Source: Chaetoderma sp. LZ-2023a (Eukaryota; Mollusca; Caudofoveata; Chaetodermatida; Chaetodermatidae). Taken from it: a stretch of 64,000 bases of DNA. The notes beneath the pieces were generated by a model that worked only from the letters and a program-made list of their open reading frames with translations, had not been told where the DNA came from and searched no databases. Shown here piece after piece: positions 25,525-55,500 of this stretch. The position numbers were made by a program, and so were the translations under genes. The stretch lies in contig CM067370.1 of the NCBI GenBank assembly GCA_034401795.1, positions 67,143,188 to 67,207,187 on the forward strand, written 5' to 3'. How positions within the stretch are numbered: position 1 is the first letter of the stretch; every line of letters starts with the position of its first letter.

Positions 25525-28500
25525 TGATAATGATGATGCAGCCAATAATATGATATAGATTTCACACATAAAAAATTAAATATTCATATTTAACAAAACT
25601 GTGAGAGAAAAAACATGAAATTTATATCTCCATGAACTATGATACAATATAGCTAGCATTATTAGTTTCCGAATGTACAGCTGGCTTTGTTTCCTTTAGA
25701 AAGTATCACAGGGAATGCAAAATTGTAATATTGTGAGAATAAATGTACTTGAAGCCATGTCTGCATATTTTATGAGATGGACATTAGACATGGGTCTCCG
25801 TTTAACCATTTACAGTCTTAGACGACCAAAACAGCCTCCTTAGTAGTCATTCTAAATGCCAAATTACTGATCAATATAACACCATTTTTGGAATTTCACC
25901 ACTGGAATGACTGGCTCGGTTACCGAGCCAGTCATGACAGTGGTAAAATTTCAAAATTAGTCTTCTATTGATCGGCAAATTTACACTCTATTGTGAAATT
26001 TTTAATTTTTAAACATAAATTTAGGCATTAAAGGGTTAAGAATTACATATATTGAACAATCTATTCTGATTTTCAAAAAGGTTTTGCACTTACCTAACGG
26101 AAATGGTTATTGGCTAACAGATTTCTGGCTGCGGCACCGGCTGCTCTGACTTCATGTTCTACTTCTACGTCATCAACAGCACCTGGCTCTGCCTGCCCGT
26201 TGACATCATCTTCCTCAAAATCTGGCAAACCTCGGTCTTTGGCGATGTTGTGGAGGATGGCACAAGATCCTATTATGTTACAGGATTTTGCTGGCGAATA
26301 ACGCAGTTCTCCATGAAGACAATGAAATCGCCGTTTCCACTGCCCGATGCCTCTTTCAACAACATTTCGAGTGGATTTGTGAGATATGTTGTAGGCCCGT
26401 TGTTGAGCGTTGTTTGGTTGAAGATACGGCGTCATTAGCCAAGTTTTTAGGGGGTAGCCAGAATCACCAAGAATATATTCATGACCCCTCCTTGTTTCCA
26501 TCAAGCGAGTGAGGCCACTTTCCTGTAGAATAACAGAATCGTGAGTACTGCCAGGCCAGCTCGTCACCACATTGATGAAGCGACATTTAGCATCCATAAC
26601 AACCTGCGTATTAATGGAATGATAGTTCTTGCGGTTAATGTAGCGTTCCTCGTGATCCGACGGGCTAGTAATCCATATGTGCGCTCCATCGATTACTGCC
26701 ATCACAGCTGGAAAACCTGCGATTTCATAAAAATCACCAATGATATTGTGAATATCTTCATTTGCTGGAAATTTGATTATTCTAGGTATTAAATGCACCA
26801 ATGCCTCCGACACATCTGAAACTGCACGACATGTAGTTGATTGCGATACACTAACAGTGTCACCGACCGTCCTTTGGAATGATCCTGTTGCGTAAAAACG
26901 TAGCGAGATGAATAATTTCTCAATGGGTAATAGAGCATGATTTCTCATAGCCCTTGGTTGAAGTTCTTCATGTATTACATCAACAAGACTCAGAATTGCT
27001 TCTCTGACGAGTCTGTATCTTTGATACAGCTCCACGTCATTATAGGCATCCAAAGGATGCAATCGGTCTCTAAAAATGCGTTGTTGACGAATACCACGCC
27101 TTCTTTCTTCTTCCATTATTGCACCGACTATTAGCAAAGCCATTTCTACTACGCTTGTACGATGATATAAATGGTAGATTGGCGAGAGAATAGAGTTTTA
27201 AACACCCCACGCAAAGTTAGGACACCTACCGAGGTGTCTTATTTCTGAGTCGAGATATACGTGCAGTACCGTCGCGAAGAGGTTTTCTGAATACCGCTTA
27301 AGTTAAGCACCCCGCCTATGTGCTAATATAGGTGGGGTGCTTACACTTAAGTAGTTTATAGAATTCGGGCCCTGGATTCCAGTGGCTGTTTTATGACAGA
27401 ATTGGATACATTCCACGATCCATCTGGAAATAGTGTCTCTTGACGCCCTACCATGGGGATCAATATATGACAACCATAGGGAACATGGGTCCGTCCGCCA
27501 AACCTGAGTTCTTTTCTTGTACTTATTCAAAGCACGGACTGGACACCATACTTTAGCACCAGGATCATATCTGGTTAAGGCAGGTAAAATAATAAGTTTA
27601 CCCGGATACTTTAAAGATTGATTCTTAGCCAAGAAATTCAATCTTGGTAGAAGCTTAAGGCCTTCACCTGTAACTATATAACGGTCAGGCTCAGCAGACA
27701 AGGCATGAATTTCACTCCTGCGTCTGGCTGATGCTGCCGCAACTAAAAATACAGTTTTAAGTGTCAATAATTTAACAGATATAGCACTAAGTGGTTCAAA
27801 CGGCTTACCACTCAAAACCTGCAGAACCAGAGAAAGACTCCATGACGGTGTCAGTGGAGGATTTCTTGGTCTGAGATTGCCCATACCTTTAATAAGAGTA
27901 TTTAAAACACTTACTTCATCACTTCTCCTCTTTGCCAAGCAAGGGATAACAGTCATCAATGCTGATTTGTATCCTGCAACAGAATTAGGTTGAAGACTAT
28001 AGGTATCATACAGGTGACAGAGAAAATCAGCTACTACCTGAATAGATGCTTCCATCGGATTGATACATCTCTTTGAGCACCATTCTGCAAATCTGTTGAT
28101 TTTATAATTATAAGCTCTGGAGGTTGACCCCCTCCTGGCTCTGGCCATGAAATTGGCTGCTTGCTCAGAAAAGCCCTCCTTAATCGCGGATTGTTTGACA
28201 ACATCCATGCAGTCAATTGAAACATTGACGGATTGTTGTGAAGGGTCTTGCCCTGGAAGATAATATTGTCCATCAGCGGCAGAGGAACCGGATTGCAAAC
28301 CAGAAGGTCCAGCAGATCCGTAAACCATGATCGGCTTGGCCAATTCGGGGCGATCAGAAGCACTTGGCATTCCTCTTGTCTGATCTTCTGAAGGATCCTT
28401 GGAATCAGGATTGTTGGAGGGTATGCGTATGCATACATTCCCTTCCAACTGATAGCTAGCGCATCTATTGCGATAGCGCTTGGATCTGGAATCGGAGAAA

Positions 28501-31500: not shown

Positions 31501-34500
31501 TTTGTTGGACAGCCTACACGGTGAACACAGATGGCAAGGGTGGGGGAAGAATCTAGCTTTCATGGTCTTCAGACAGGACGGGCACTTCTGAAAAGGGAGG
31601 GATACGAAGACAATGAGTATGACAGTCTCAAAGCCGTGATAACGGATCTTTAAGTAGAAACCAAAAACCAACTCGAGAGAAGACATCCACTATTACGACC
31701 ACCCTGACGGGACAGGAGACTTCTCAAGTTAATACACACCAAATACAACCAGAACCCCAAATTAAGAGAGAGAGAGAAAGATTATGACTATCTAGCTATC
31801 TCTCAACACTCTTAATAACAGGGAGATGAACACATCACATACTACTCTAACCTAGGATCATGAGATCAAGGAAAGAGAAAACTCTGGTTGATTATGACAT
31901 CAAACCTCACTATGCAAAAGCTCCTACCAGGAGAGGGGACGTCAGATTTATGCAAGAAATATCTAGATCTCCAGACATTCTCAGCTCTCGACTAATATAA
32001 TATTAAATTATATATACTCGAGAACCCATGCACACGCAAGAGTGAAAATAGTGCAATAGCAAACGGCAGCAGAAAATGTAATTATTTTCAAATAATCATG
32101 CGCCATAATTAATAAACTCCCTTAGCCTGAGCACAGGCAACCATCCTCTTGTGCAGGAAAACACGTCCATCCATCCGCCGAGACTCCTCTTCCAGAAGAA
32201 CTGATGAGGGGGATGGGACAAAAGGAAGGAGATATTTTATTTATTAATATATTATATCTCCAACCCGTAGACATATCACGATGATAAGTCATCCTGGGAC
32301 GTGAACAACCTTCCAGAGAAGACCAGGCAACCTTGTATAAACACAAGACCCACCTGTAAGCATAAAACACAAGAGTTTATTAGCCCTAGGCGCTGGGAAA
32401 AAATTTACAAGGATTCCCAGTGCCTGAAAACGCGGTACCGCCGAAAACGGCCGCTACGAAAACCGGTAACACACAAAAGTTACAAGCCTAAAATAAAAGC
32501 CTGGAACAATGTCACCTTGGATGATGACGAGGAGGACTCCTCCAACATTCTTGCATCAGCCATGATGGATTGGGATGTAATTAGTTCTCGTAGAATTCAG
32601 AAAGAGCCTGTGAGGAATTTCACAAGTTGCTTCTTCAGCCAATATATTAGAAAACAGAAGTACCGGTGTGCGCATGCGCAGAGGGTGGTGTTTGTCATGT
32701 GCATGACTGTGTACTTCCACCTGCCCATTAGGGGCACCTAACTTTTTATAATTCTGAATATTATTGAATTTAGAGCTGATATACTAGTATATCAAGAGTG
32801 TTAGGGAGGTAAGTATGTTCTCATGATGTGAAAAAATTTGACCCTTTGACCCCTCCCCCACCCCATGCGGGCGGAGCCAAATCTAAATGGCCTCTTGCAC
32901 TCCGCAATCATATGGGTAGCTCAGATATCAAATTTGGTTGAGTTCTGTCTAATGATTTCAGAGGAGTTATGTTACAACTTATTTGACCTTCTGAACCCTG
33001 CCACGCACCCCTGGGGGCGGAGCCAAATCTAAATAGTCTTGCAAAGCGGAATCATATGGGTAACCCACATACCAAATTTGATTTAATACCACCCAATGGT
33101 TTGGGAGGCGATAGCGTGATGGACAGATGGACGGACAGACAGAGGCGATTACAATATCTCCAACGTTTTATTAAAGCGTGGAGATAATAATAATAGAACA
33201 GGCAAAAAGCCATATAGTGAATCACTTGCAAGTTTCAAATTACTAAGGTTTTTTTTAAAGATTTGTAATTTTCATTTATGTAATGTCATACATACACGTT
33301 CCTTAAACTCAATTCTTTATCACTATTATGGCAATGCAGTTACTGTACTAAACCAATGTGCCAATCATAACGCACTATCAATTATTTATTATGAATATGG
33401 GTTACCTTGCCAACACCAGCAGCACAAACAACAACGATGAAGTATGAGCCAAATGTTGGGGCGAGTATCTCAAGAAATATTGAGAAGTCATTTACAATGT
33501 CAGCAAACAATCTGCAAAATAAATACCAAACAGATTTATTACATATATTCCATGTTAATCACGAGGAACTGTTGCTATTAGCTTCAAGATATTCGATGTC
33601 TCTAATTGAATAGCTGCTTGGTTGAGAATTTAGGGTTAACCATTTAGCACTTAAGCCAGACAAAACCGGCTTTTACAGTGACCTTACGAAATGTCCATTT
33701 GCAGAGCAAGAGAAAAATATTTTTGAAAATTTACCACTGGAATGACTGGCTCGATAACCGAGCCAATCATTCCAGTGCTAAATTTTCAAAAATAGTCTCT
33801 TGGTTGGCAAATGGACATTTTCTATGAGAAAATTAAAATTTTCGTGAACAAATTTGAGTGTTAAAGGGTTAATTGAATAGATGGTTAGTTGAGATTTTAG
33901 GGTTAATATACGCTGCAACTCTTTAACACTTTCAAACACAAAATGATAACTTCTTTATGATATAAAGAATATTCTGTTAAAGATTTTGAAAGTAAGTTGA
34001 CTGGGAACTGTTACTGCTATGGCTGCAATATGTTCCAGACAATTTAGTTTCAAAATATTGTACAGCTTTCCTGGGGAATTGCCTTGACTTTGAGACAGCA
34101 GAAATAAGGGTTAAATATTAATCTCTGGAGAGCCATGGTTGTCAATCAATTATCAAAAGAATGTGTTTATTACTCAGAAAACAAATTCATGTATGTAGAA
34201 TCATATGCATGGATGAACAATTGAACACATCACTCACGATTAGTCATTCATACTTTGTAGTACAATTATATTGTTAATTTATTTTATTAGAAAAAGATCA
34301 ACAGTTAACAATAAATGTTATACTCACCTCCATCGCTTACAATCACAGTCAAGGCTGGTTCTGAAAAATAAAAATAAAAACTAAATATAGTATACTGTTC
34401 TAAATATCCAATGCACTGATTAACCCTTTGGTGTTGATACTAGCTGTGGGCACCATTTCACTCAAGACAAATACTGGTTGTAGCAGGCCCATACTCATGC

Positions 34501-37500
34501 CAAACATATTCCGTGAAGAGTGCTCTCCATCTAGTCGTTAGATGCCTGTGTTATTCGGGCTTATTTATAACATGTTATCAGTATATGCATTGAAGTTATT
34601 TTAAGAAGAGAGACAGCTTGCCCAGCCATTGGGTGTATACAGTTCAATAAAACCTTGTCACAAGGCATATAGAGATTTAATCAACAATTTATCAGATAGC
34701 TGTGTCAGATACCTCATTGGAAATGGATTGAGTGGACTCAGAACAAACAGCAAAGCCATAATTTCATGTCTTTGAATGTTCATTTTTTCCCAAATTACAC
34801 CCAATTAACTCTGTCCACACAGGATATTTTGTGGAATAAATGCTGCTATGAAAGGGTTAATAAAAGGATTTCAAAATTTCCGCAAGTTTGATTGTTTGAT
34901 TTAACTGTCTGCCTGCTGACTATTTTGAAAACAATCCAACTAAAAGTTGTGTAAGCCACCAACAACTTTCAGTCAATTTGTTTTCAAAACATTCAGCATG
35001 TCCAGAGTTATTACCTATTGAAATTATTATCTGGTGGTTTGCAGCAGTCAGAGAGTTAAGTAGACTCACAGACATGACAGTAAGCAGGCGCAGGGTATAA
35101 TAGAATTAATAGAATTAAACATAAAACAACACACAGTGTATAATGCTTAATTAGAGCACTATAAGTAGTACAATTTACAACTGTATTGACAAAAAAATGA
35201 CACATTTTAGTGGGATTTGTCGCTATACTGTAACCATTTCAACAGTGAAATGGCAACAATTTGTTGTATGGTTTGAAAGTAATATGAATGGATGACTTCC
35301 TATCAAATTACAGGTATGTAAAAGAATTCAACAGAGTATTTTTTAATTGCAAATAATGTGCTGTATCTAGTTTGAATGGTGAACACAAGGAACACAACAT
35401 GGTGTAGAACGCAACAACCATAGAGATAAACAAGTTTAGAGACAAAAGCAGTAACCATAGAGATAAACAAGTTTAGAGACAACAACTCCAGAGATAAACA
35501 AGTTTAGAGACAATAACTATAGTGATAAACAAGATTAGAGACAATAACCATAGAGATAAACAAGTTTAGAGACAATAACCATAGAGATAAACAAGTTTAG
35601 AGCCAATAACCATAGAGATTAACAAGTTTAGAGACAATAGCAGTAACCATAGAGATAAACAAGCTTAGAGACAATAACCATAGAGATAAACAAGTTTAGA
35701 GACAATAACTATAGTGATAAACAAGTTTGGAGACAATAACCATAGAGATAGACAAGTTTAGAGACAATAACCATAGAGATAAACAAGTTTAGAGCCAATA
35801 ACCATAGAGATTAACAAGTTTAGAGACAATAGCGGTAACCTTAGAGATAAACAAGCTTAGAGACAATAACCATAGTGAAACTTTGTTTAGAGACAACAAC
35901 TATAGTGATAAACAAGTTTAGAGACAATAACCATAGCGATAACCAAGTTTAGGGATGACAACCCCAAAGATAAACAAGTTTAGATACCATAACCATAGAG
36001 ATAAACAAATTTAGAGTCAATAAACATAGTGATAAACACGTTTAGAGACAAAAGCCATAGAGATAAATAAGTTTAGAGACAATGACCATAGAGATAAACA
36101 AGTTTAGAGACAATAACCATCGTGATAAACAAGTTTAGAGACAACAACCCCAGAGATAAACAAGTTTAGAGACAATAACTATAGTGATAAACAAGTTTAG
36201 AGACAACAACTATAGTGATAATTAGAGACAATAACCATAGAGATAAACAAGTTTAGAGACAACAACTATAGTGATAAACAAGTTTAGAGACAATAACCAT
36301 AGTGATAACCAAGTTTAGGGATGACAACCCCAAAGATAAACAAGTTTAGATACCATAACCATAGAGATAAACAAGTTTAGAGTCAATAAACATAGTGATA
36401 AACATGTTTAGAGACAAAAGCCATAGAGATAAATAAGTTTAGAGACAATGACCATAGAGATAAACAAGTTTAGAGACAATAACCATAGTGATAAACAAGT
36501 TTAGAGACAACAACCCCAGAGATAAACAAGTTTAGAGACAATAACCAGTGATAAACAAGTTTAGAGACAATACCGGTAACAATAGAGATAAACAAGTTTA
36601 GAGACAATAACAATAGAGATAAACAAATTTAGAGACAATAACCACAGATTTAAACAAGTTTAGAGACAATGACCATAGAAATAAACAGGTTTAGAGACAT
36701 AACTATAGAGGTAAACAAGTTTAAAGACAATAACCATAGAGATAAACAAGTTTAGAGACAATAACTATAGTGATAAACAAGTTTAGAGACAATGACCATA
36801 GAGATAAACAGGTTTAGAGACAACAACCATAGAGATAAACAAGTTTAGAGACAATAACCATAGAGATAAAAAGCTTAGAGACAATAACCAGAGAGATAAA
36901 CAAGTTTAGAGACAATAACTAGTGATAAACAAGTTTAGAGACAATAACCACAGATTTAAACAAGTTTAGAGACAATGACCATAGAGATAAACAGGTTTAG
37001 AGACAATAACCATAGAGATACACAAGTTTAGAGACAATAACCATAGAGATAAATAAGTTTAGAGACAACAGCCCTAGAGATAAACAAGTTTAGAGACAAT
37101 AACCAGAGATAAACAAATTTAGAGACAATAACCACAGACTTAAACAGGCTTAGAGACAATGACCATAGAGATAAACAAGTTTAGAGACAACAACCATAGA
37201 GATAAACAAGTTTAGAGACAACAACCAGAGATAAACAAATTTAGAGACAACAATCATAGATGTAAACAAGACTAGAGACAACAGCCATAGAGATAACAAG
37301 TTTAGAGACAACAGCCAGAGATAACAAGTTTAGAGACAACAGCAATAGAGATAAACAAGTTTAGAGACAACAGTCATAGAACTAAACAAATTTAGAGACA
37401 ACAATCATAGACATAAACATGTTTAGAGACAACAGCCATATAGATAATCATGAGCAATCAGAGAGTGCAGGGCCCTCACATTTTGGTCATATTGTAAATA

Positions 37501-40500
37501 GTTTTGGGTTTTTTCCCGATTGTTTTATTTTCCAGATCATAATGATAAGTTGTTGAATCCAAGTGCATGGTCACAGTTTCTTGAGTTACACTTTGAGCCA
37601 AATCAGATGAGTAGTTTCAGCGATATCCACATAACAAGAATTTGATGTGATCCAGATCCGGTTTTGTTATCGAGATCATTACCAAGGTTGTGAAATCCTC
37701 ATTCATTGTACGACCATACAAGCCTTTGTTAAGATTTGAACTAAATTTGATCAGTATTTTATTATATACATGCACGAACACACACACGACCGCACGCACA
37801 CACAACCATGAATGCAATATGCTATTTCCCATATGGAGCAAGGATGATAATACGACTGATTGAGCAGAAATGAATTCCTTATAATCATAAGATGACATTT
37901 CAACATTGTGCACAATGTATATGCCGAATATACTGTCTGGTGTAAAAATATTAAGAACTGAAATATACAGATGATTGAGGCTAGCAATTTGTCTCCTGCC
38001 CACACATCACTAGCATTTTTGTTTGTACCTCTTGCTCATGACTATGCCTAACAACAGAGAAATCTGTATCTACATGTAGAATCAAAATGATTTACACAAA
38101 TCAGCCGCTTACCCTCTTGCCCACGCGAACAAAATGCTACCAGTCATCCCTGTACCATCTGCAAATAAATTAAAGAAAATCTAGGATTTATCTTTTTCAT
38201 GAGAGTTAATACTTAAGATTACGAATACTCTTGATACATCATAATATATCTAGCTGACTCTAATTTACATTTAAGAACCTGCCCTTACTAGGCAGGTTAG
38301 CTATCTGACAGTTCTGCTCACATGGAAGCCTGCCCGCGCATGCACCAACTGGCGAATCACCAAGATAATAATTCATTGGCTTAGAATTAGCAACTGCGGA
38401 ATATGACCATGCCTCTGTTGACCAGACGCCGGGTCGTTTCATGATGGCGAGTATTAACTCTCTCATGAAAAATATAAATCTTAGATTTTTTGTATTTCAC
38501 ATCAAGAATATAGTTACAGTCATGAATACTTCTTATATATGTGAACTTGGAGGGAGGGAGGTGCGGTCATCAGACCAGCTGTTTCCCTGCAAGAGTTTGT
38601 TTTTGAAGGCGCTAAAAGCATCTGCAAACTGCTATTAATAGCAACCAGGAATAGAACAAATGATCAGCTGATACGCCCGATGTGGATAGATAACCGCTTC
38701 GCAAAATATGCTCCACTCACTCTTTTTAATAGAAAGGAGCGATAAATGTCCTACACGCTCACCTTACTAGTGCCAAAGTACTATAGGACATCGAACAAAT
38801 AGGCTTTGCATTTCAAATACTCTTGAAGTAAGACCGATATAAAACACAAACAATCACCAGATTAGTTACATAACAAACAAGCATTCTGTAAGTATTGCTT
38901 TACAATACATGTCCCCTACCTGGTGATAAATCTTTAGAGATTGACAGTCAAAAATTTCATTAAAAATTGTCAAAAGCAGCTGAAACTCGAACTTGATCTG
39001 TAACATAGCAATAAACCAAGTCTCAGTTATATATGGTGAAAGAGAAGGAAAAAGTCTTGAAAGCTGATATGTTTGTATTTCATAAGTCGAAAGGGGACAT
39101 AACTCCATCAAAAAATGACACAAATGCCTGAAACCCGAACTTGGTCTGTAATTTCTCATAATAAAGTAATGTACCAATTCTCAGTTGAATATCTTGAGAC
39201 TGCGAGAAAATGGGCGGAAAACTAATATTTTTCGTATTTCATAGGTCGAAAGGGGGCATAACTTCATCAAAGATTTATGCATACGCCTGACACTCGAACT
39301 TGCTCTGTAACTTCTCATAACAAAGCAATGGAGCAATTCTCAGTATAATATCTTGAGACTGCGGAAAAAAAGTGCAGAAAACTATTTTTCGTATTGCATG
39401 TCGAAAGGGGCATAACGTCATGAAAAATTGACGAAAATGTCTGAAACTCGAACTTGCTCTGTAACTCCTTATACTAAAGCGATGCACCAATTTTTGCTTA
39501 ACTATCTTGAAGGAGTGCGAAAAAAAATGTGGAAAGCTGATATTTTTCGTATTTCTTAAGTCGAAAGGGGGCATAACTCCATCAAAAATTTACACATACA
39601 CCTGAAACTCGAACTTGGTCTCTAACTTCTTATAACAAAGCTATGTAGCAATTCTCAGTATAATATCTTGAAAGACTGCGAAAAAAGGTGCCGGAAAACT
39701 AATATTTTTCATATTTCATAAGTCAAAAGGGGGCGTAAATCCATCAAAAATTGACGAAAATGTCTGAAACTCGAACTTGCTCTGTAACTCCTTATAGTAA
39801 AGCGCTGCACCAATTTTCGCTCAAATATCTTGAAGGAGTGCGAAAAAAAGTGCGGAAAGCTGATATTTTTTGTATTTCTTAACTCGAAAGGGGGCATAAC
39901 TCCATCAAAAATTGACGCATATGCTGAAACTCGAACTTGCTCAGTAAGTCCTTATACTAAAGCGATGCACTGATTTCCGCTTAAATATCTTGAAGGAGTG
40001 CGAAAAAAAGTGCGGAAAGCTGATATTTTTCGTATTTCTTAACACGAAAGGGGGCATAACTCCATAAAAGATTGATGCATATGCCTGAAACTCGAACTTC
40101 GTCTGTAACTTCTTATAACAAAGCAATAACCCAGTACCTTGAAGGACTGCGAAAAAAAGTACGGAAAACCAACTGCGACAGACGGACGGACGGATGGACA
40201 AAGACAGACGGATGGACAGACAGACGGACAGACAGAGTGCAAACCTATAGTCCCCACGGTTTTACTGGTAGGGGACTAATAATACGTGACAAAATGGAAC
40301 ACCACAAACATAGGACTGACCTTGTTTTGTGAATGAAGACATCTTTCCTGCTTTTATGATGAGAAGTTGTGGAGCACATGTGAGTGAGTGCTTCCTTATC
40401 ATATGTGTAGCACATGTTATCAATGACCTTTATTTACAGTATTTTCAAACCTTAATTTTTTTCAAAATTCCACAGCAAGAGAGGTATTCGAGTCACATAA

Positions 40501-43500
40501 GTAATGGTCATTAAAGCTTGCCTCACAGTGTCACTGTCATACTGTCCTCCACAGAACTCCATGGAACAGAGCCGTGGAGGCTTTCGCTGGTGTAGTACGG
40601 ATCACGTGTGCCCCGAGGTCGAATTGGCCAGGACTGAACTGATCCCATCTCACCCCTAGTACGACCAATCAAGGCCTGTAGGTGTAGCCCGAATACGCTG
40701 TGAGCATGAAAATGACTTAGTCTGTTAAACCGCGCATTGCACATGCGGGCTATTCTAGATAGACGTCTACGCTATGTAGTAATTATAGAGTGTGGCATAA
40801 CTTCTGTAGCTAATTGCCTGTATTTTCCAAATCATTAATACTGGGCCTCTCCAATCGTCGACTTATATGAATCTGTTTACAGAATCAAAATCAGACAGAA
40901 ATTGGCTGAGATATCCTTAAATTAAAACCTGCACTGATGCTGACCCGTATGATGGGCCGTATCACGCGTGCCCCATAACGCTTGGGGGTGAAGGTCGTTT
41001 GTGACATCACTAAAACACGTGACATCCTGCCTTTTACCTGGTTGATTGGCTGAAAGGACTTGGTGGTGCTAGCTGATTGGTCAAGGAATCCTTTATAAGG
41101 AGCCGTATCGGCCACAAATCCTCAGTCGGGATGGGGATGTGGTTTGATATGGTTGTCATTTGATAGAAGCTCTTCAGCACTATGTCGAGCAGCCATTGCC
41201 AATCTACACAGGTCTAATCATTTAACATCTGAAGCTGCGATCATGGCCTACCTCGCCGAGTGCCAAAGTTCTAATTTTTCTGCCCTTCTTCAAGGGCTAA
41301 TCAAACTAAAGTTATGGTCTCGACTCAACCTGAGAAGTAGCACTCAACGGCGCATCTAAATTAACCGATGACGCAGAATTAAGCTACCGTTTACAACCCA
41401 AAACGGGGCTCGCTTTCGAATGACATTAACATCACCAAATTGAACTATAGGCCTTTCTGGCCATTGTGTATCTCCTTGTGTATCTCACCAACTCCTGTCC
41501 AAGACACGCCTAACAAGTGGTTCCAAACTAGCACCCTACTGGGGCTCATCTTAATGAGCTGAACTTCTGCATGAACTAATCAGCCGATTTTCGTTGTTCT
41601 CGAGATAAATGATTAAAAGGTGTTCTTACACCTTAACTTTATTTCCTACACGCTGACGACTAATAGGCATGCATAGGTCAGCTAGACCTACATCTTTCGT
41701 TTTAAGCTAATCACGGTGATATCTACGGCATTGGCCGATTTTTTAGCATTGTTCTTTTGTTTATTCATGTTCAAATAAATATAACTCGCTAATAAAGATT
41801 ACAGACACTCAATAGTGCATAAACCTAATAAGTTCCTAGTAAGTTCTTAATAGCAACACGTTTCACTAGTAACCAAATCTATGCTTAGAATAAGACAGGA
41901 TTTGGCTCTAAACCTATCTAATTATAAGCTCAGATAATTCAGTTAGTTAATAGCAGATAGAAATCGCTTCCGCAATAAAAAGTACTGCCAAACATTGTAT
42001 AGGGCGCTACTGTGTGATAATATACTATTACACCAAAAGATCAGACCGACCAGTCTGCTTGCTTCCATTGCACTTAACTCCGGGCAACCTGGTTCTATGT
42101 AGGATAGTCATAGAAAACTGGGATCCGACCGCTATTTTTCAGTACATTCTTTGCAATGGAGCAATACATGGACCAGGCCTTTGAGCTACGGTCAAATCGC
42201 CTTTTAAAGGCAAGCAGAATAATGGGTTGACCAAGATATTTCAAAGACTATTTCTTAGTTATAAAATTAAGACTACCGGTAGGTAGAAGCCTAAAGCCTT
42301 CCCCTGGAACCACAAAGCGGTCTGGTTCAGGTTTCAAAGCGTGAATTTCACTTTTTCGCATAACTGAAGCTGCAGCAACTAGACCTACAGACATAAGTGT
42401 TAACAACTTCATTGAAGTAGCACATAGTGGATCACCAGGTTTATTGGCTAACACAAGTGATAAACTTCAAGATGAAATCACAGGCGTATTCCTTGGTCTT
42501 AAGTTTTTAAACTCCATAATTCACCACTTCCGCTCTTAGCCTAAGGCGTAAAGTTATGAGTATCATAGACATAATAGAGGAAACCAGCTGCTACATGAAT
42601 AGATGCTTCCACCGAATTAATACATCTTGTTGAGCACCATTCTGAAAATCTGTCGATTTTATATTTATATGCTCTGGTGGTTGATCCACTTCTGACATTG
42701 ACTATGAAATTGGCGGCTTACTCAGAAAAGCCCTCCCTTAATTGCAGGTTCTTTGACAACATCTAGGCAGTCAATTGGAACATTGAAGGATTGTTGTGCA
42801 GTTGTCTATCACAGGTGCTGGATTGCAGACCAGAAGGTCCAGAAGATCTGTATACCTTGCTCAGCTTGGCCAGTTCAGGGTAATCAGAATCATTTAGCAT
42901 GACTTAAATGTACATTGAAAAACATTTATCTGCACAGCATTTGGATTGCTATGTCAGGCCATGCTATGCTTCACATAAGGCTCGACAAAAACCATGTTGT
43001 CATATGACATAGGCATAAAATTATGCCGAAAATTGTGATTAACGGGAAGAACTAGCCAACACGGAACCCGTAAATAGCCATCCCGGGCCTATGCCATGCC
43101 TGCTCTATGGATGGCTATACTATACGCATGAAGGCAAGAATGTCTAAGAAACAATTTTCCCCCTCTGCGCATGCGCCTGGCCACTGAGAGTATCCCTGTA
43201 ATGGACAGGTTTTCTTTCATAGCAAAGGACATGGCCACATTCGCGTGATGCTGATGACTGAGTTGACACCTTTAGGTATGTATGTATATATGATTACTGT
43301 ATTCCGTGGCCGTAGTAGTAGAAACATCCTACAGCTGCAATCAGTCCTTCTTCACTTTTGCCCACTGTGTCTTGCCCTCAGTCAAAATCCGTAGCTTCCT
43401 CAGGTCCATTCTTGACTTGCGTGTACCGAGTCCTGCTTTCTTGAGGTCACCGTTTAGCACGCTTAGCAGATTTATGCAATGACATCCTCTCCTGGCTTTG

Positions 43501-46500
43501 TATTTTCTGGCTACGAGTAGGGCGATTCCCAAGGCTCTCTTGTGCTGTGTCTCTTCTGGCAGCCTTAGTGCATGGTCAAACATGGACCATCTTTGCTGGG
43601 CGACCTTTACAGTCCATCGTTGGAAATTATGCTGTCTGGGCATCAGTGTCCAGTGATGGTGAGTAGGTGTTAGCGGTAGCAGGCATCAAGTTTGTCTAGA
43701 GCTGCCTTTGGATGCCCAGCTGTTACAGTTATACAGCATCAGTGAGACGCAGGTTGCATTGCATAAACATAGCCTTTTTATCAAGGGCTTCTTTGATCTA
43801 CGAATCCATAGCTTCCAGAAGGACTGGAAAGCTATGTTCCCCATGACGCAGCATGTAGCAATGTCAGCAGTACAGCAAAGCAGTGAGCCAAAGATTGTAC
43901 TTTTCCTCCATGGTTCGTCGCCACGAAGTGGGTCATTATTTTCTTTAGTTTCATGCTTTGTAGATAGGTATATGTGGGTGAACTATGTTTTAGATTCATT
44001 CATAGAGATTCTCAATTTTTAGTTTGCTTGCAGCTATTGGGAGAAGTTCGTCAAGGGGTTTCTTTTCCTCGTCTATGAAGTCCACATTATCAGCATGTTC
44101 CATCTCTGCTGGCATAGCCAGTATTGACACTGGGGGGTTTGGAACTTTCCCGCACAGATTTCAATGCAGCAGCAAGGTAACAGGTGAAAAGCACCAGAGA
44201 TAGACCATCTTCCTGTGGGGAGCCGATTGATGCTTCAAACTCTAGACTTCACTGACTTGACTCATACTCTCAGCTTGGTGTCTGCAAGCAGTAGTCTCAC
44301 TAATTGTAGCTCATCTTCATTTCAACTGGCCTGGCGCAATCCATCTAGGATATTTAATTGTGTCGAAGGCTCATGACATGTCAATGCCCATTTTGTGGAA
44401 ATCCCAGTGTTTGAACATGACTACTGACACAAGCCCATATGATGCCTGTGCAGCTGCGTCCACATTTGAAGCCATTTTGACATGACTCGGTGAAGTCATC
44501 GATCTTGTCTCGGATGCAGCATAGAGTAACATTGGATAGGATTTTCAGCATGCTATTCAGGAGTACAATGGGCTGCAGATTGGCTGGGGGGGAGGTGGCT
44601 TCTTGGGCTTGGGTAGTGCGATAAGGGTGCCTTATCCTACAGCATCGATGGGAATGTGGTGCAGCATAAAAGCTGAACTGATTAGGTGCGTGATCAGTTT
44701 TGAGATGCACGTCCATTTTTCAGGGCTTTAAGTGCCTTTTCAACTTCTGCCATTTTAATTGGTGGCCTGGGTTTCCTGAGAACGGGTGTAAGGGCTCATC
44801 ATCATTGTCAGTCAACTGTTCCTTGAACCATTCTCAAATCGCCTCGGCTTTTCCCCGGTCAGTCCCGATAAAGTGTCCTTCAGAGTTGTGTACAGTGAGT
44901 GGTGGTGTGTAGTCAGTAACTCTTAGGGCTCGGGCTGCCCGAAATATTATATGACAGTCATCCATGGCAGTGATTTCATCTGCTAGGGAGTCTGCTTGTT
45001 GAATAGCAAGATCTTTTAAGCATTCGCTAATGTGGCGCAGAATGTTATTGCGCTCCGGGCGTAGTTTGTTGCGGTCTTCACTTTGGCCACTTTGATAGAT
45101 GCGCCGCCGTAACACTTTCTGCTCTGCTGACAGTTTTACTACTAGAGGTTCATTAGTATACCTAGTTTGGTTGTTTTTAAGAATACCTATGGTGCTGGTA
45201 GCTGATGATTCCATAGATTTCAGTATTTTGGTTAGGGCTTTGTTTGGATTGGAGCTGATGTCGATGTTAGCTATCTGCTCCCCGAGGGCCTTTTTGTATG
45301 ACATTTGAGTGTCAGTGTCGCTGATGAGCTTGGGTAGGTTGTAGGTGACTCTACCCTCTTGCTGGTATGGTGTTTATATATTAGGTAGAGACACATTTTT
45401 CTATATAAAATCTTTGCACCACTTCTTCCTTGAAATAACGGCCATGATCACAGCGGGAATGTTTGGTACCATTAGACAGTCTGAAGATTCTGCATCATCA
45501 AAATGACAACAGCGAGTCAAGTCAAGAAGAAAACGACCCACAAATTCCTGAGTACGACCCCGCCATTCAACGGCTGATTTCTGCTGGAGGCTGCTGAGGC
45601 TGGTGCCTCTGTACAGATGATCACCAATTGACGAGATATCGCAAGAAAGCCAGCCATTCGTCAAAAGATAATGAGATGCAGAGCAGAGAGTATAAAAGCT
45701 GCTCGCTCTGCGACTTAAAGCACCGTGACACCAGTCCAGGTTTCACACTAACGCCTCCCCAACAACCCCAGTCGACGGTAATTGTTCAGCTTCTTTGCTC
45801 TAATACCTGGCAGGAAAAGCACAGAGGAGCTTCTGACTTAAACCGCTCAGTTTAGGACGTCATTTACAGAATATTCGCGCCGCCACTTGACACGAAAGAG
45901 AAGTAGACATCAACTCCACAGTGGCTGAACCTGCCAATGTTTCCTGCGCTGTAACATCATCAAGAAAACATCGCTGCTGCCCACCGCTTGCTGCGAAGGA
46001 ATTCAGAAAGTCTCTGTTCGGTACTAACCTCAGACCAAGTTCCGCTTCTGCTGCTTCGTATTGTCTTGTTCTGAACGACACTTTTCCCCCCCACTAAAGA
46101 ACATTTTTGTGAAAGATAACTTCCACTGCACTGCCCTCTTTTCAACAGAAACACCCCGTTAGAATCAACTTCCACCACGCCATTCTCGCGACAACTCCTT
46201 GTGAAAACAGACTTCCTCCGCGTCGTTCTTGTGACTGCTTCTCCGCGAGAATCCGCTCAGCTTTTGTTATCTCTGGTCATCGAGGATTAAGTCACTGCGT
46301 GACGTTGTGCCTTGGGAATATATCTACCAAAGCTGGTTCAAAGCCAACAACGCCCCCAATAGCAAGCCTGCAACCTACAACCGCGGGACTTCTTGTGATT
46401 GTGAACTTTCTACCATCCTTCTAGGACTTGAACAGTGCATGTTAAATCTTAAATGTCCTCACTAATCTAGTTCTCTATTCTTTACAAATTTCTAGATATA

Positions 46501-49500
46501 TCACATTAAGCGTGGTTTATTATCATTTAGGAAATGCTCAAAAGGAGATCTCCCATCTTAGCCATCACCTGCAGACGACGATCTTGTGCCCTGCTCAATG
46601 TGAAGACAAATACTAGCATTGTAGCGGTGTTGCTTTTCAAATACTTGTAAATACAAATAAGGACCATCACCATTTTTACTGCTTTTCTAAGCGGCTGATG
46701 CCCTCAGCGCTTCGCATAGCGTAAAGAAATTGAAACAACGCTGCGATGGGAGACGTGTTTTCCGACCTCCAAAAGGGTTACTCCTTGTTTTGTAGCTCCC
46801 CTGCACTTCACTTGGACTACCCTTGAATAGTGTAAAGTCGCCAGTGGATATTTCTGCCGCTTTTCCCCCTGCGTGCGCAATCAACGTATGTCTTCCGACT
46901 CCTCAATCTGCGCTGCTTCGGCTGGACCACGAGCCGCTTTGATTAGGAAATACTGCTATGGCTAGGAAAGCTGATTCCCTCGGTTCGCCACGCCTCAAAG
47001 CTCGCCTTACCCGCGCCTGAAAATCTCGTCACTGACTCCCCGCGCCAGTTTGTCGCACCTTCTATGCCTGTCATCACTTTAGAACGTGGCGGTGTCCAGA
47101 CTTGGCAGAGGTTCTACGAAACTCTTTCCTCTTTATTTACATGGGCCAGTTTGCGCGTCTGCATCTTGCAAGGACCGGCCCTTGGACCCTCTCAAGATAT
47201 TTTGGACGTTGCTGAAGTCGGTCTAGGCACTGAGCCAAAGATTCGCCTGACCTTGCAACAGTAGAGGTTCTCGCTTAATCTAACCGATCAGGTCCTGCGG
47301 CGACCTGAGGCCTTACTCTGCAAAACATCCTAAGTAACTAAACTACCGCCTCGTGCGGGATCCGTTTAGGCACACACAGAAGGCCTGCATCTGGACATTT
47401 ATTGAGAATCGGATCAACCTGGCGGCAACTACTAAAACTTCCCTCCATGTGTTCTACCCCTTAGGACACTAAAGTAAGATTCTTCTCTCTGCTCCGCCTT
47501 AAGCGGGCCACTAGGAAATAGTTACTTTTCAGAGCTAAACAACATTTACGATGAATTAACCATAGATATATGGACTGACGAGACAAATAGTAACCATTAG
47601 TGACGTACTGACTGCCAGGGATAGATAGGAAAGCCTGCTGTCTCTTCCCTCGCTCCGAAGGCCTACCCGCCTCCTGAGTGATGTTATTTCGGAGAGGCTG
47701 ACGCTCGGCGGATGATTAGGACACGAATTGCTCCTATCATCACCCGGTGTGCAACTTTCGGCCGATGGCATCGCGCACAGAGCTTAGGAAACCTAAAACA
47801 TTAAGCAAGACCATCCTCGCGACCTCTCTCGCTCCAGTTTCCCACCTCGACACACTAATTAGCACCCGAGAGACGCTTAAAAAGAGCTTGGCTCGAAAAC
47901 AGGCAGGAAAGATCGAAAGCCATCTGCGGTAAAGAGAGCCACCTGCGGTCCTTTCCTCCCATTTTACATGCACCACATCTGTATGCACCTCCTGTTTCCC
48001 ACAGGATTAACCCGGAAGGAATGATTCATTGGCCTGGGGATGTCTTTTCATCAGTGCGACCCTCTGGCTCCGCTTGGTGACTAAAAGGAAACAGAAGGAA
48101 GGAAACATCCAAAGTGGATCGGGATGGATATTGCAAGAGGAATGGCTGCTCCAAGCTCCGATCTTCTGCCCACGGAATGCGGAGATGAGACTGACATACC
48201 GACCACTGGGGAGGATCCAGTCTCCTTGATACGTCAAACTCAGGCACACTGCCACGTCGGAAATGTCTTGGCAGACCTGCGCGTCTCTAAGGAGACTGCT
48301 GACCACTCTGGTCAGCAAACGTTTGGGGGGGGGGAAAGCCCCAACCTCGTATGCAGGGAACGGCGTCGCAAGCCCCGAGACTGGGACAGATACCAGTTGC
48401 CCCGGTGCAACGACCGGCCACCCAGTTTCCTCAGACTGGGACAGGCACGGGACGGCGGCCCACTGCCCTCATCAAAATATTTGAGCACTAGGTATCAAAT
48501 TACGAGTGAGCAGGTCCCAAAAACTACATACAACCATTTGCGCTGTTAACTAACAAAATCTTAATTTTGATTGGCTGGTTACAACGATGTCTTTTCATGC
48601 AACAACCTCTCTTGAATAGACTTGAATGACCCATAGTCGATATATCCCATATTGGACAAATTTTCGGTTGATCCATTGAGCGATTCCTAAGTTGTTTTCT
48701 TAGCTAAATGACATCCAAAATGTTTGCCAATCAGGTTCTATAGAATGAACTTGGTTCAGACGTTGACATATAGACGATGTTTCTTGAGAATTACGTTAAT
48801 GACCCAAGCAGTTTCAAATATTTATCCCCACATTTTGAACAAACTGAAGGGATTTTGCAGTCACCTTCGTGAGCCTGTCAGTCCATCAGGCTGTCTCATC
48901 AGAAATGGTTTTGTGGAATTCAATAAAATTTGTTATGTCACATGAGCTACCCATATGGATTGGGGTCTGTAAGATGACATGTACATCAGACCCCACACGG
49001 GCAGAAAATCAAAGTTATGGGAATCCAACTAGATTTGGTATATTACATCTAGTTATACATAGGCATGCTGTGGATTGCAAGACACTGTTTATATTAGGTT
49101 CCATCACTGGTGTGAGGTGTGGGTCCATTGATGGGGGCAGAATTGCAAAACTGGCACAATTCAATCAAAATCGGTATGCGAGTTACTCATATAATTGGGG
49201 ATTACAACGTGACTATATTAGTTCTGTCCATGAGATGGGGTTTAGAGGGAAGAGCGGCAAAGTTGGTGAAAGCATGGGCATTTGAGATGTGTTTAAATAT
49301 GTTGCTAATAAGGACAAATCTGTCCAATACCCACGCTGTTGATATATTTTTCAATCAGGCTCCTGCGAGGACAAAAGTGTCTATTTTGGAGACAATGTTG
49401 CCCACAGCTTGTGTCAGTGGTGTGATCTTTTGACCTCAAAATTGGTACACGTCTTCGGGACCCTACAGACATACACCTACCCAAGTTTGGAGATCATTCC

Positions 49501-52500
49501 AGTAGAACCAGAGTTATTAAAAATGTCTTAAGAACAACAATAACAACAAGAATAAGAAGAAATAGCACTCCATGCTCGCAGTAACTCTTGCATCTAATGA
49601 CTCAGGTAAAATAGCACAAAATTCAAGATGACGACTAACTATATCACCAATCAATTCTGTCAGGACAACAAGACTGATTAATTTAATTCAAATGTATAAA
49701 ATTTGTACTTAACAGCCACCAAAACCTATGTATCAAAATCGTGCCAGTGGTTCTCAACCATGCATCACTATCGTCCTGATGATTCTTGAGAAGTCTTTTA
49801 AATGAAAAGTTGATGACTTATGACATGGACAGATGATGGACAGCTATAATTACATAAGCTCACTTAGCTTTTCACACCAGTTGAGCTAATAATGCGAATG
49901 TCAATAAGAGGCCCAAGGTCTAGTGTGACTCACCCGGAACACCAGGATTTGAGCAAAGTTAGCTTTAGTAGAATCAATAGCAACTAGCAATGTGGGAATT
50001 GTTCACTCTAGGATCCTTCCACCAAAGTTTACTGAAAATTGACGAGTTGACAAAAATCCTATACAATATTTCTCATTCCACACTCAACTGCTTTACAGGG
50101 ACACTCAACTGTGCTACAGGGACACTAGACTGTTTTAAATGGACACCCAACTGCTTAAATACAGGGACACTCAACTGCTTAAATACAGGGACACTCAACT
50201 GCGTTACAGGGACACTCGACTGCATTACATGGACACTCAATTGCTTAAATATAAACACTCAACTGCTAATATAGGGACATTACTCAACTGCTTTACAAGG
50301 ACACTCAACTGCTTTACAAGGACACTCAACTGTTTTACAGGGACACCCAACTGCTTTAGAGGGGTGCTCAACTGCTTTTCAGGGACACTCGACTGCTTTT
50401 CAGGGACACACAACTGCTTTATAAGGACACTCAACTGTTTTACAGAAACAACCAACTGCTTTAGAGGGACCCTTCACTGTTTTACAGGGACACTCGACCG
50501 CTTTACAGGGACACTCAACTACTTTACAGGGACACTCAACTGCTTTACAAGGACACTCAACCGCTTTACAGGGACACTCAACCGCTTTACAGGGACACTC
50601 AACTTCTAAGTACAGGGACACTCGACTGTTTTACAGGGACACGCGACTGCTTTACAGGGACACTCAATTGCTTTACAGGGACATTCAACTGACTTACAGG
50701 GACACTCAAATGCTTTCCAGTTTTTGCTATGCACCACTTATCTCTAGCTAAGCTCCAACCACTATCAATTTCTAGAAAACTCTACAGGTAAGCGGTCATA
50801 TTATTTTGAGAATAAGTTGACTGTGTGCTGTTGCTGCCTACACCGCCCACTCAAATTAGTTTCAAAATATTCAACAGAATGTTTATTAAATAGTAAAGAC
50901 ATATGGCAGCAACACCACCCAGTAAAAATTAGTTTCAAAACATTCAACAGAATGTTTATTAATTAGTAAATACATACAATTCGTACTTATCTACATCACT
51001 CATGACATCATTGATTGACGTCATCCTACACGTCACATACTTACTTATGACCTCATTTGATGGATGGATGGATAAACTGGAAAGGTCCATTACCACACAT
51101 AAGCACGCTAGACAGGATTAGTGTCATAAGTCAATGTTTGTTTAACAAATCGAACAACTCAATGATTAAAATAAAAATTGTCGAAGATTGATTAACCTTT
51201 TAACCTTACAGGTGAGATAACCAAATGTCAGAAATATCACTCTGAATGTTTTTTAATTAATTAGATTGGCAACGTTTACTGTCCTCGTGCCAAATTGTTT
51301 CAAGATATCCAAGGATGAACGAGTGCTTACGTCTGATTATCCATGTCATAGCAGCACCTAATGTAGAGGCATTTGCCTTGCCCACGCCCAGTCCAGACAA
51401 CATCTGCTCAGCAGCCAGGGCACCAGTAATACTGCTAGCAAATGCCTGCAGAGATAAAGACAGATTTAAGGGAAAGGAAAAGGGAACTCCTAAATGACGT
51501 TGATTGGTAAAACCACACACTTATGAAAGTACTATCATCGGTAAAGAATATAAAATGAATCAGTATAACTTAATGTTCTCATAAAAAAAGAAACCGAAGA
51601 ATGACAATCAGATTGTTGAAATCTATGCCCACCCCACCCCCACCATCAAGCAATGGATTAATGTAGTATTAACACGGCATATTGGAAACTGGCACAGCAT
51701 ACATGTATTGGGTTTATGCCCATTAACATATGCGAGTATGCACTATACTGATGACATTCAGTCAGTTATAAAGGGCATATCATTATAATTAAAAATAAGA
51801 GGTCCAAGGGGCCTGTGTCACTCACCTGTCAAAATTGTTGGTGGGTGGTTTAGTAGTCGTTTAAATGAGTTTGTGGACATTTTTGCAAGTGCAATATGGC
51901 CGCCAAACACGCTACATTTTGATTGGCCCACGGCACCCAGGTTGGGGTTTTTTGACGGATCAACTTCCCTTGAACAAACTTTAATGGCCCCTTAGTCCTT
52001 AATCACACCGCCCAAATTTCGGCCTGATTCCTTCAGCGGTTCTGGAGGAGTTGTTTTCGGGAAAACTAGGTCATCCAAGATGGTCGCCGAACCATTTGGT
52101 CAATTAAGTCCTCTTGAAGAAACTTGGCTTACCTCTTGGCCTAAATGAAGATTCCCCAAGCGGTTTCAGAGAAGATTTTTAGACATTTCCTAAAATTGGC
52201 CAAAATCCAAAATGGCCACCGGGCAAATTGGCCTATCGGGTTCATTTGAACAAACTTGGATCCCTATGCCCTAAGGATGCTTCCTGCCAAACATAATTGA
52301 AATCGGCCTAGTAGTTCTCGAGAAGACATTTTAAATTTCCCATTGCTTTAGCATGGGAGCTTTTGACGAGAGAATTATCCAAGATGGCCATCAAACTGTT
52401 CATCCGACAATTTCAAAAATTGCAAATTTAAGCCCAGAACACCCAAAAACATACACAGAACCAATTTTGGCCTCAAAATCCATCAAATAAAAAAATCCAA

Positions 52501-55500
52501 TATGGCCACCAAACAGGCCATAAGGATGCTTCCTGCCAAATATAATTGAAATCGGCCCAGTGGTTCTTGAGAAGTCATTTAAAGGAAAAGTTGACGGACG
52601 GACGGACGGAGGATGGACGGATGAACACACGATGGACGGTGGCCACGGCATAAGCTCACTTGGCCTTTCAGGCTGGGTGAGCTAATAATCACAATTTCTT
52701 AAATTAGGTCACTGGAACCTCGACCTTTTAACCCCTAAAGTAAAAATTTTTAGACCCCCCCCCCCACGAGGAACACACAGGCCTAGTTTGCTGAAGATGC
52801 CTCCGGTAGAACATTCGTTATAATCTGGAAATGCAACTCAATTTGGTAACCATAACCTTGACGCATGAACTGTCAACCCCAAAATTAATAGGCTTCTTCG
52901 GTTCCCCCAAGGGCAGCACGCAGGTTGAAGCTTGGGTTAAGATCGATTCCTTCAATTGTCATCCGGCAAAGTAACTCAATTTCCTTAATTTGGTAACTAT
53001 GACCTTGAGTCCATGACCTACAGTATCAACCACAAAATTAACTAGATTGATCGGTCGATGACGCCTGATCACAAATTCCCACATTCACCGCTTTTAACTT
53101 TCGACACCACACAACCCAACCCCGGGGGCGGAGTCAAATGTAAACATCCTTTTGCACTCCGCAATCATATGGGTAATTCACATACCAAATTTGGTTGAAT
53201 TTCATCCAACAGTGTCAGAGGAGTTGCATTACAATCAATTTTTTTACCTTTTGACCCCCACCCCCACCCCCTTTAGGTGGTGGTAGTCTTGTGTTATACA
53301 CCCCCCACCCCCATGGATACTTACCTCCTCTAATACTATTTGCTATATAGATCCGGGTATCTATTACATCTGGAAAAAACTTCAGCTGACTCTGCCATCC
53401 TCATATAACTTCATCCTCTTCTATATTCTCTTGATTTGAGCTTCCAGCCTCATATCAATTACTGCTCAAAACGCAAATCCGCGTTTCAACAAACCCGGTC
53501 TAGCCGGGTGATGTAATCAATGCGTTGCGCATAAACTTCATATTTTATTTTTACAGAGAAAAAACAAAAATACCGTGAGACACGATTTGAAATGAGGGGC
53601 GGTTGAGGTAGGCCATAGTATTAGAGGAGGTAAGTATCCATGGGGGGGGGGGGGGTTATAACACCAGACTACCACCACCTAAATGGGGAAGTCTGGGGGT
53701 CGTTATACCTACCCCTAAGATACGTTACCTCCTCTAATACTATTAGCTATAACCCCAGAATTCGTCATGATCATATATTAACCTGAATTTTGAAGGTTAT
53801 AATATGAATAACTTTCACCTCTAACACGGAGGGTAGGCAAATTGCGTGAGGCGGCAGGTCAGCAAAATGAGAAAAGGTGCATAATACACACACAACATGA
53901 TTGTTAGTATCACACGTGATAAAGATGATGATAAAATTCTTACCACATTAAGAACGAGACGATGTTGAGGGACGAGACGTTGAAGAAGAAGCACACGGCA
54001 AGTGCGGAATGGCTCGTGAAGATAGATTAATGATATTGCAAAAGAAGGACGAAGATGGGCTCTGATCTTTAAGATAACAATTTATAAAGGTGGACTCATG
54101 TATCTAGCCGTCGACTTGCATAATATCCGAGATGGATGAGCCTGCTAAGTGGGCGAGGGTAGTAGAAAGACCCTGGACATCATGAGATTTAACCCCTACT
54201 ATCTGCCTATCGCCAGGAGACGCAAGATCATAGCAAGTAATAATAGTCTCAGTAATCCATTTTGCAATAGTCTTAAGGGATGCCGCACAGTTAATAGAGG
54301 GAGCGTAAGTGACCCAAAGATGTTTATTGTCAGGACGTTTAAAAGCGGTTTGGGTTTTATAAATCTTTAAGGCCCTGACCGGACACCAGAGCTCGTCACC
54401 TGGAGAAAAAGACAATTTCCTAAGAACAATGGGTTCTGCCGGATGAGGAAGAGTTTGTGATTTGGAAAGAAACTCCCTTCTGGGGTAGAGAGTAAGGCAA
54501 TTTCCAGAGTCACAAATGTGGTCACTTTCCGCTGAAAGAGCGTGAAGTTCCGAACGACGAAGGGTAGAGGCAGCGGCCACCAGAAAAATAGTCTTGAAAG
54601 CAAGAAACTTAAGACAAACAGATCCTAGGGGTTCGAAGTGTTTGCTGTTAAGGACTTGTAGGACCAGAGACAAATTCCAGGAAGGAAGAGGAGCCTTGTC
54701 CACTGGACGAATGTTGAACATGCCTCTAACAAAATTGTTAAGAGTAGAACCATCCGCTGGAGGTGTTAGAAATAGAATGGACAGACTGAGCTAGCGTGAA
54801 ACTATAGCCTCTAACCATGTAGGCGGACAGGTGTAGTGTCAAATAGATAAGTAAAAAAGTATAACACCTCTGATAAAGATGCCGAATCGGGCAGGATATG
54901 GTGGTATTTGTTTGGTCTGGACAGTTGATCGGCAATGAAGTTCAGACGGCCGGGGATATGAGCTACTGTGAGAGAAATGTTGTGATCTCTGCACCACATC
55001 AGACGATGAAAGGACCTGGCACAGAGACGGGGATTTGGTACCTGCCTGGCGGCTGAGATAAGACACTACCGTTGTGTTGTCTGATTAGAACGTGCTGATT
55101 CACAAGAATATGAACCCAAGATTGGAGGGCTTTCGAAACAGCTAAAAGTTTGAGAAGAATGATATGAAGAGAATCTTGATGGGACCCAAAGAGCTCCCCA
55201 TCCGTCTAGGGTGGCATCGGTGAAAATAGTTGCCGATGGAAGAGGTTTCCGAAGAGGGACTCCTACCGAGAGATAATCAGAGACTAGCCAAAATGGAAGA
55301 AATTCCAGGAGAGGACGAATTGGAATCAGTTGATACAAGGGATCTCTGGATTGGCACCAAAGGGACATAGATAGAGTAGGAGAGGATGCCTCATGGCTGC
55401 CGCCCAAGGAATTACTCTTTCGACCAACACCATGAGACCAAGGACTCAGAAAAAAGCGAGTTGATACCACCTTTTGATTGACAAGAATCGAAACCGCAAA

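Follow-up and report, generated by a model that had tools for sequence, protein, structure and literature searches.

The window, meaning the whole 64-kb stretch of DNA analysed here, is animal in content and carries on its minus strand a chain of RUSF1 exons, located by tblastn of the window with human RUSF1 as query. Eight exons (E2-E9) have AG/GT borders and, when spliced in silico, yield a single open frame of 245 aa; its product matches Pfam PF04884 (4.5e-94) and aligns with PDB 9sdh (RUS family member 1) over 242 residues without a gap. The exon considered here, E4, and its neighbors are:

51331-51445, minus strand: RUSF1 exon E3, which precedes E4
38159-38160, minus strand: acceptor AG of E4
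38113-38158, minus strand: RUSF1 coding exon E4, 46 nt, entry phase 1
34328-34360, minus strand: RUSF1 exon E5, which follows E4

E3 contributes one base to the first codon of E4, the last two bases of E4 belong to a codon split with E5, and skipping the 46 nt of E4 would shift the frame. The initial annotation had described a 46-nt exon at these positions with this acceptor AG, and had called it coding and conserved: its borders are confirmed, a GT donor is also present, and its coding character and conservation are borne out by the eight-exon frame, the PF04884 match and the ungapped 9sdh alignment.

No second copy of E4 was found among the tblastn matches within the window. Upstream alternative acceptors were ruled out, as all six in-frame AGs within 300 nt of E4 run into a stop. 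The AG at 38150-38151, 9 nt inside E4, is in frame and open and is a possible NAG-type alternative acceptor, the use of which would cost three residues. A RUSF1 pattern search returned 39 matches in genome contigs and 30 in viral contigs, none of them confirmed. Two minisatellites lie in the same region, one of 31 bp (~66 copies, 35412-37447) in the intron following E4 and one of 21 bp (~30 copies, 50080-50720) ~600 nt downstream of E3.

DIRS elements in the window

DIRS1-like elements are understood here as in the part of PMC3266345 consulted, which describes inverted terminal repeats at both ends, internal complementary regions (ICRs) that lie toward the 3' end and are complementary to the termini, genes with tyrosine recombinase, RT, RNase H and methyltransferase domains, and a 3-bp circular junction common to element and target, without target duplication. 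The elements in the window are:

3175-16975, minus strand: DIRS-A, inverted terminal repeats 3192-3390 / 16780-16975
8820-15868, minus strand: DIRS-B, with inverted terminal repeats
21449 to ~32833, minus strand: DIRS-C, with inverted terminal repeats
38171-42900, minus strand: DIRS-D remnant (3' part)
~53267-60734, minus strand: DIRS-E, with inverted terminal repeats

DIRS-B appears to be nested inside DIRS-A. It has an RVT_1 match (5.1e-22) above the Pfam cut-off and RNase H (1.6e-4) and Dam (0.0055) matches below it; frames of A, B and C have integrase SAM-like Pfam matches, all below the curated cut-offs. The ICR junction is AAT in B and C, with the trinucleotides at the actual element ends deviating in part; AAT circular junctions are tabulated for several mollusc elements in the portion of PMC3266345 used. 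All five elements are oriented like RUSF1, on the minus strand, which is weak evidence of a bias (n=5, one nested). An open frame at 26094-27197, inside the DIRS-C region, contains a DDE_Tnp_4 domain (1.3e-39) and is presumably a Harbinger-type transposase. The DIRS end pattern had no matches in viral contigs.

A further feature of the element ends is the motif AGGTAAGTAT, which occurs 10 times in the window against 0.18 expected, each time in a terminus or ICR of DIRS B, C or E:

8859, 9110, 9174, 15844, 21490, 21741, 21809, 32807, 53317, 53628: AGGTAAGTAT sites

This motif matches the 5' end of U1 snRNA at every position. Its counterpart in DIRS-A is TGGTAAGTAT, and in DIRS-D the GT is lost. 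A conserved stretch of at least 10 nt at the same place in DIRS1-like elements is described in PMC3266345 (seen in part), the main text of which has no matches for “splice”, “splicing” or “donor”.

The boundary of DIRS-D beside E4

The ICR of each of DIRS A-D runs straight from one element end into the other, so the end of an element can be taken as the point where agreement between terminus and ICR ceases. Comparison of terminus and ICR in A-D places the DIRS-D boundary at T 38171, or at the 3-bp junction position 38169-38171. The initial annotation had begun the element at about 38173: the terminus is real, and the same comparison moves its boundary by 1-2 nt, to 38171/38172, a shift that leaves the conclusion unaltered. 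The acceptor region of E4 is then composed as follows:

38161-38168, minus strand: host part of the E4 pyrimidine tract, adjoining the AG (10 nt if extended to 38170)
38169-38171: 3-bp circular junction position, common to element and target, with adenines at -12 (38170, in the candidate motif discussed below) and -13 (38171)
38172-38215, minus strand: 3' terminus of DIRS-D (probably the right extension), with the distal pyrimidine tract and branch-point window of E4
38450-38497, plus strand: DIRS-D ICR half complementary to the terminus
38498-38540, plus strand: DIRS-D ICR half complementary to the other element end, in which a branch candidate of TGTAAC type lies at 38514 (minus strand)

The complementarity of 38450-38497 to 38171-38215 is the ICR arrangement of the class, and A, B and C are arranged alike. 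The inverted match between 38161-38260 and 38401-38560 scores 60, whereas the best of 2000 dinucleotide shuffles reaches 28. Compared with the termini of the other elements, the D terminus scores 57 with B and 34 with C (neither reached by any of 500 shuffles) and 22 with A, which is at chance level (35/500 shuffles reach 22). Terminus and ICR are identical in 46/48 columns in A, 48/48 in B, 50/50 in C and 38/46 in D, the lower agreement suggesting that D is older than the other three.

Beyond the ICR, DIRS-D contains a decayed putative tyrosine-recombinase gene (42900-42090 and 40626-40456) that matches the recombinase-region frame of DIRS-B at E 7e-52. Homology to DIRS-B extends over 38424-38864, 40457-40578 and 42204-42900, of the B pol frame only the C-terminal end is retained (2e-20), and a 161-bp tandem array interrupts the element at 39059-40124. 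A second inverted terminal repeat was sought by comparing the reverse complement of the left 280 nt with 38500-51300 (best E 0.42), and by running the right repeats of A, B and C against 38000-64000 together with a 16-mer right-end scan, none of which gave a convincing D end; a 16-mer match at 38818 (4 mismatches) was dismissed as it sits within a B-homologous stretch. The element looks truncated near 42900. At the level of the DNA, exon, acceptor, element and boundary are established.

The 3' splice site of E4

What remains of host sequence at the E4 acceptor is 8-11 nt plus the AG. From -14 outward the sequence is that of the element, which therefore holds the window where branch points usually lie and some half of the pyrimidine tract. 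The initial annotation had put the -18 to -40 window inside the DIRS terminus, where by the mapped boundary it lies wholly, and had called the pyrimidine tract a host/transposon hybrid, as the boundary at 38171 also makes it. Judged from sequence, the putative transposon-derived signals of E4 are thus located within the element. Pyrimidine content from -20 to -4 is 0.76 for E4 and 0.65-0.88 for the seven other RUSF1 acceptors examined.

A model for the origin of this arrangement is that a DIRS1-like retrotransposon inserted in gene sense ~10 nt before the AG of the conserved 46-nt RUSF1 exon, which put kilobases between the exon and its former branch point and distal tract. Both would have been replaced by the 3' terminus of DIRS-D, whose U-rich stretch by the junction would serve as distal tract while an adenine, either within DIRS-D or right at the junction, would act as branch point; the insertion may have survived so near an exon because the terminus is U-rich and supplies adenines. 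We give a probability of roughly 0.8 to such a near-exon DIRS insertion with its 3' terminus replacing the distal tract and branch-point region of E4. On the gene side it is supported by the in-frame joins of E2-E9, the ungapped RUSF1 alignment and the frameshift expected if E4 were skipped; on the element side, by a terminus/ICR match far above shuffles, the like layout of A, B and C, and the recombinase remains in D. We infer that AG 38159-38160 is the splice site used for E4, that its branch point belongs to DIRS-D, and that the insertion is both old and fixed. With 7 random points, the chance of at least one falling within 13 nt upstream of one of the 8 acceptors is ~0.012, and the true chance of such proximity is higher, since the window has more than 7 transposon ends. 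Differences between the D terminus and its ICR at splice-relevant bases show a trend too small for a test of selection.

Several adenines could serve as branch point; they were ranked by a crude yUnAy score, not by a trained model. The best, TATTAAC at -48, is separated from the true AG by two others, which end at -34 and -23. An AG that lies farther than about 8-12 nt downstream of its branch point tends to be selected (PMC7969005, in part), a tendency that argues against -48 unless these two are masked. A candidate at -30 scores weakly, and a third, CTTTAATT at -12 (A = 38170), lies on the junction and very near the AG. Folding the terminus with the ICR, ~235 nt upstream, predicts that the two pair (mean probability 0.80-0.81 across the terminus; z-score -4.3, with 0/100 shuffles as stable), leaving -26 to -50 largely buried (mean unpaired 0.11) and the AG likewise (0.14). 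This predicted burial speaks against the simple form of the insertion model, unless the helix is opened. The initial annotation had raised neither the choice among adenines, nor this pairing, nor the in-frame AG at 38150-38151.

One possibility is that the pairing itself is put to use: terminus and ICR may pair in the pre-mRNA and so loop out a ~330-nt hairpin, which would bring a branch point just past the ICR, for example in TGTAAC (A 38514), to an effective distance of ~29 nt. The predicted pairing fits this, as do candidates at 38514 and 38520 (effective -29 and -35), and such a hairpin would also conceal the AGs at -34 and -23. The fold is derived from a single sequence, without covariation, and its minimum-energy stem extends into the AG and the exon; the stem has moreover decayed (-37 vs -80 kcal/mol in element B), as drift would also bring about. 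Splicing is usually co-transcriptional and helices are opened by proteins, which counts further against a looped hairpin, and on balance we consider it unlikely. A looped hairpin would still leave the branch point to DIRS-D; among the candidates, the adenine at -12, on the junction, is the one that would not clearly do so.

That adenine is the basis of another possibility, that the host still supplies the branch point, with the A at 38170 serving either AG 38159-38160 or the in-frame AG 38150-38151. The motif is of yUnAy type, no AG lies between it and the acceptor, and it is predicted to be unpaired (0.73-0.95) in four folds. Its position, nearer to the AG than usual metazoan branch points, counts against it, and use of AG 38150-38151 would remove its three residues from a stretch of ungapped RUSF1 alignment. 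A branch point of host origin seems improbable.

There is a very small chance that E4 is no longer spliced in at all, because this RUSF1 copy is broken, because an alternative exon lies elsewhere, or because the assembly misjoins DIRS and exon. All eight exons are open and conserved, loss of E4 would break the frame, and tblastn shows no second copy in the window; as for a misjoin, the D terminus stops where the A, B and C termini stop, unlike an arbitrary join. Finally, a small foldback DNA transposon (MITE) at 38171-38497, which the two arms by themselves resemble in the form of a 330-bp inverted-repeat element, has a negligible probability and was rejected, as homology to DIRS-B continues past the inner arm (38424-38864) and into the recombinase remains, to 42900, and A, B and C share the terminus/ICR layout.

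A more general idea, which is highly speculative, is that the inverted terminus/ICR pair of DIRS elements could be a ready-made splicing module, in which the hairpin masks inner AGs and offers adenines past the ICR at a normal effective distance, with AGGTAAGTAT as part of the same splicing-compatible design. If true, a DIRS end could insert directly ahead of an acceptor and the exon would still be kept.

Known systems and implications

Transposon-supplied splice signals are already known, and the arrangement at E4, though unusual, is of that kind. The canine merle SINE in PMEL (PMC7349775, in part) is likewise a retroelement at an intron/exon boundary beside an acceptor, which changes how far the branch point lies from the acceptor and carries a pyrimidine tract of its own. 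It is young and polymorphic, has a 15-bp target duplication and alters splicing, whereas DIRS-D is old and the gene looks intact. DIRS1-like elements are also present in the host genes TMPO (LAP2alpha) and ZNF451 (PMC4495291, in part), where the authors inferred splice signals from the element; in those genes an alternative exon arose from DIRS coding sequence, whereas here only intronic signals are concerned, for an ancestral exon. Insertions in OGDH (PMC7969005, in the sections available) show that transposons can alter branch-point choice by bringing or removing competitors; unlike DIRS-D, these were experimental insertions with distant branch points in vertebrates.

In mammalian statistics, intronic transposons have zones of underrepresentation near exons, and most such insertions are taken to have been removed (PMC3088655, in part). 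Given this selection, a transposon so close to an acceptor should be rare; in contrast to the mammalian depletion, DIRS-D would be an insertion that was tolerated, in an invertebrate-like gene. A further precedent is found in yeast, where stems lie between a branch point and its acceptor. In the part of the literature covered by our search, no DIRS terminus acting as branch-point region of an ancestral exon was found.

Judging by the sequence, the end of a retrotransposon appears to have taken over almost all of the 3' splice site of a conserved coding exon, of which only the AG and ~10 bases are left from the host. An orthologous intron free of the element, with a classical branch point beside ATTTATTTGCAG, would prove the replacement and date it. 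If the arrangement holds true in RNA, E4 would be a natural test of the minimal host sequence that an acceptor needs, and of how far a long terminus/ICR hairpin before an exon can be tolerated.
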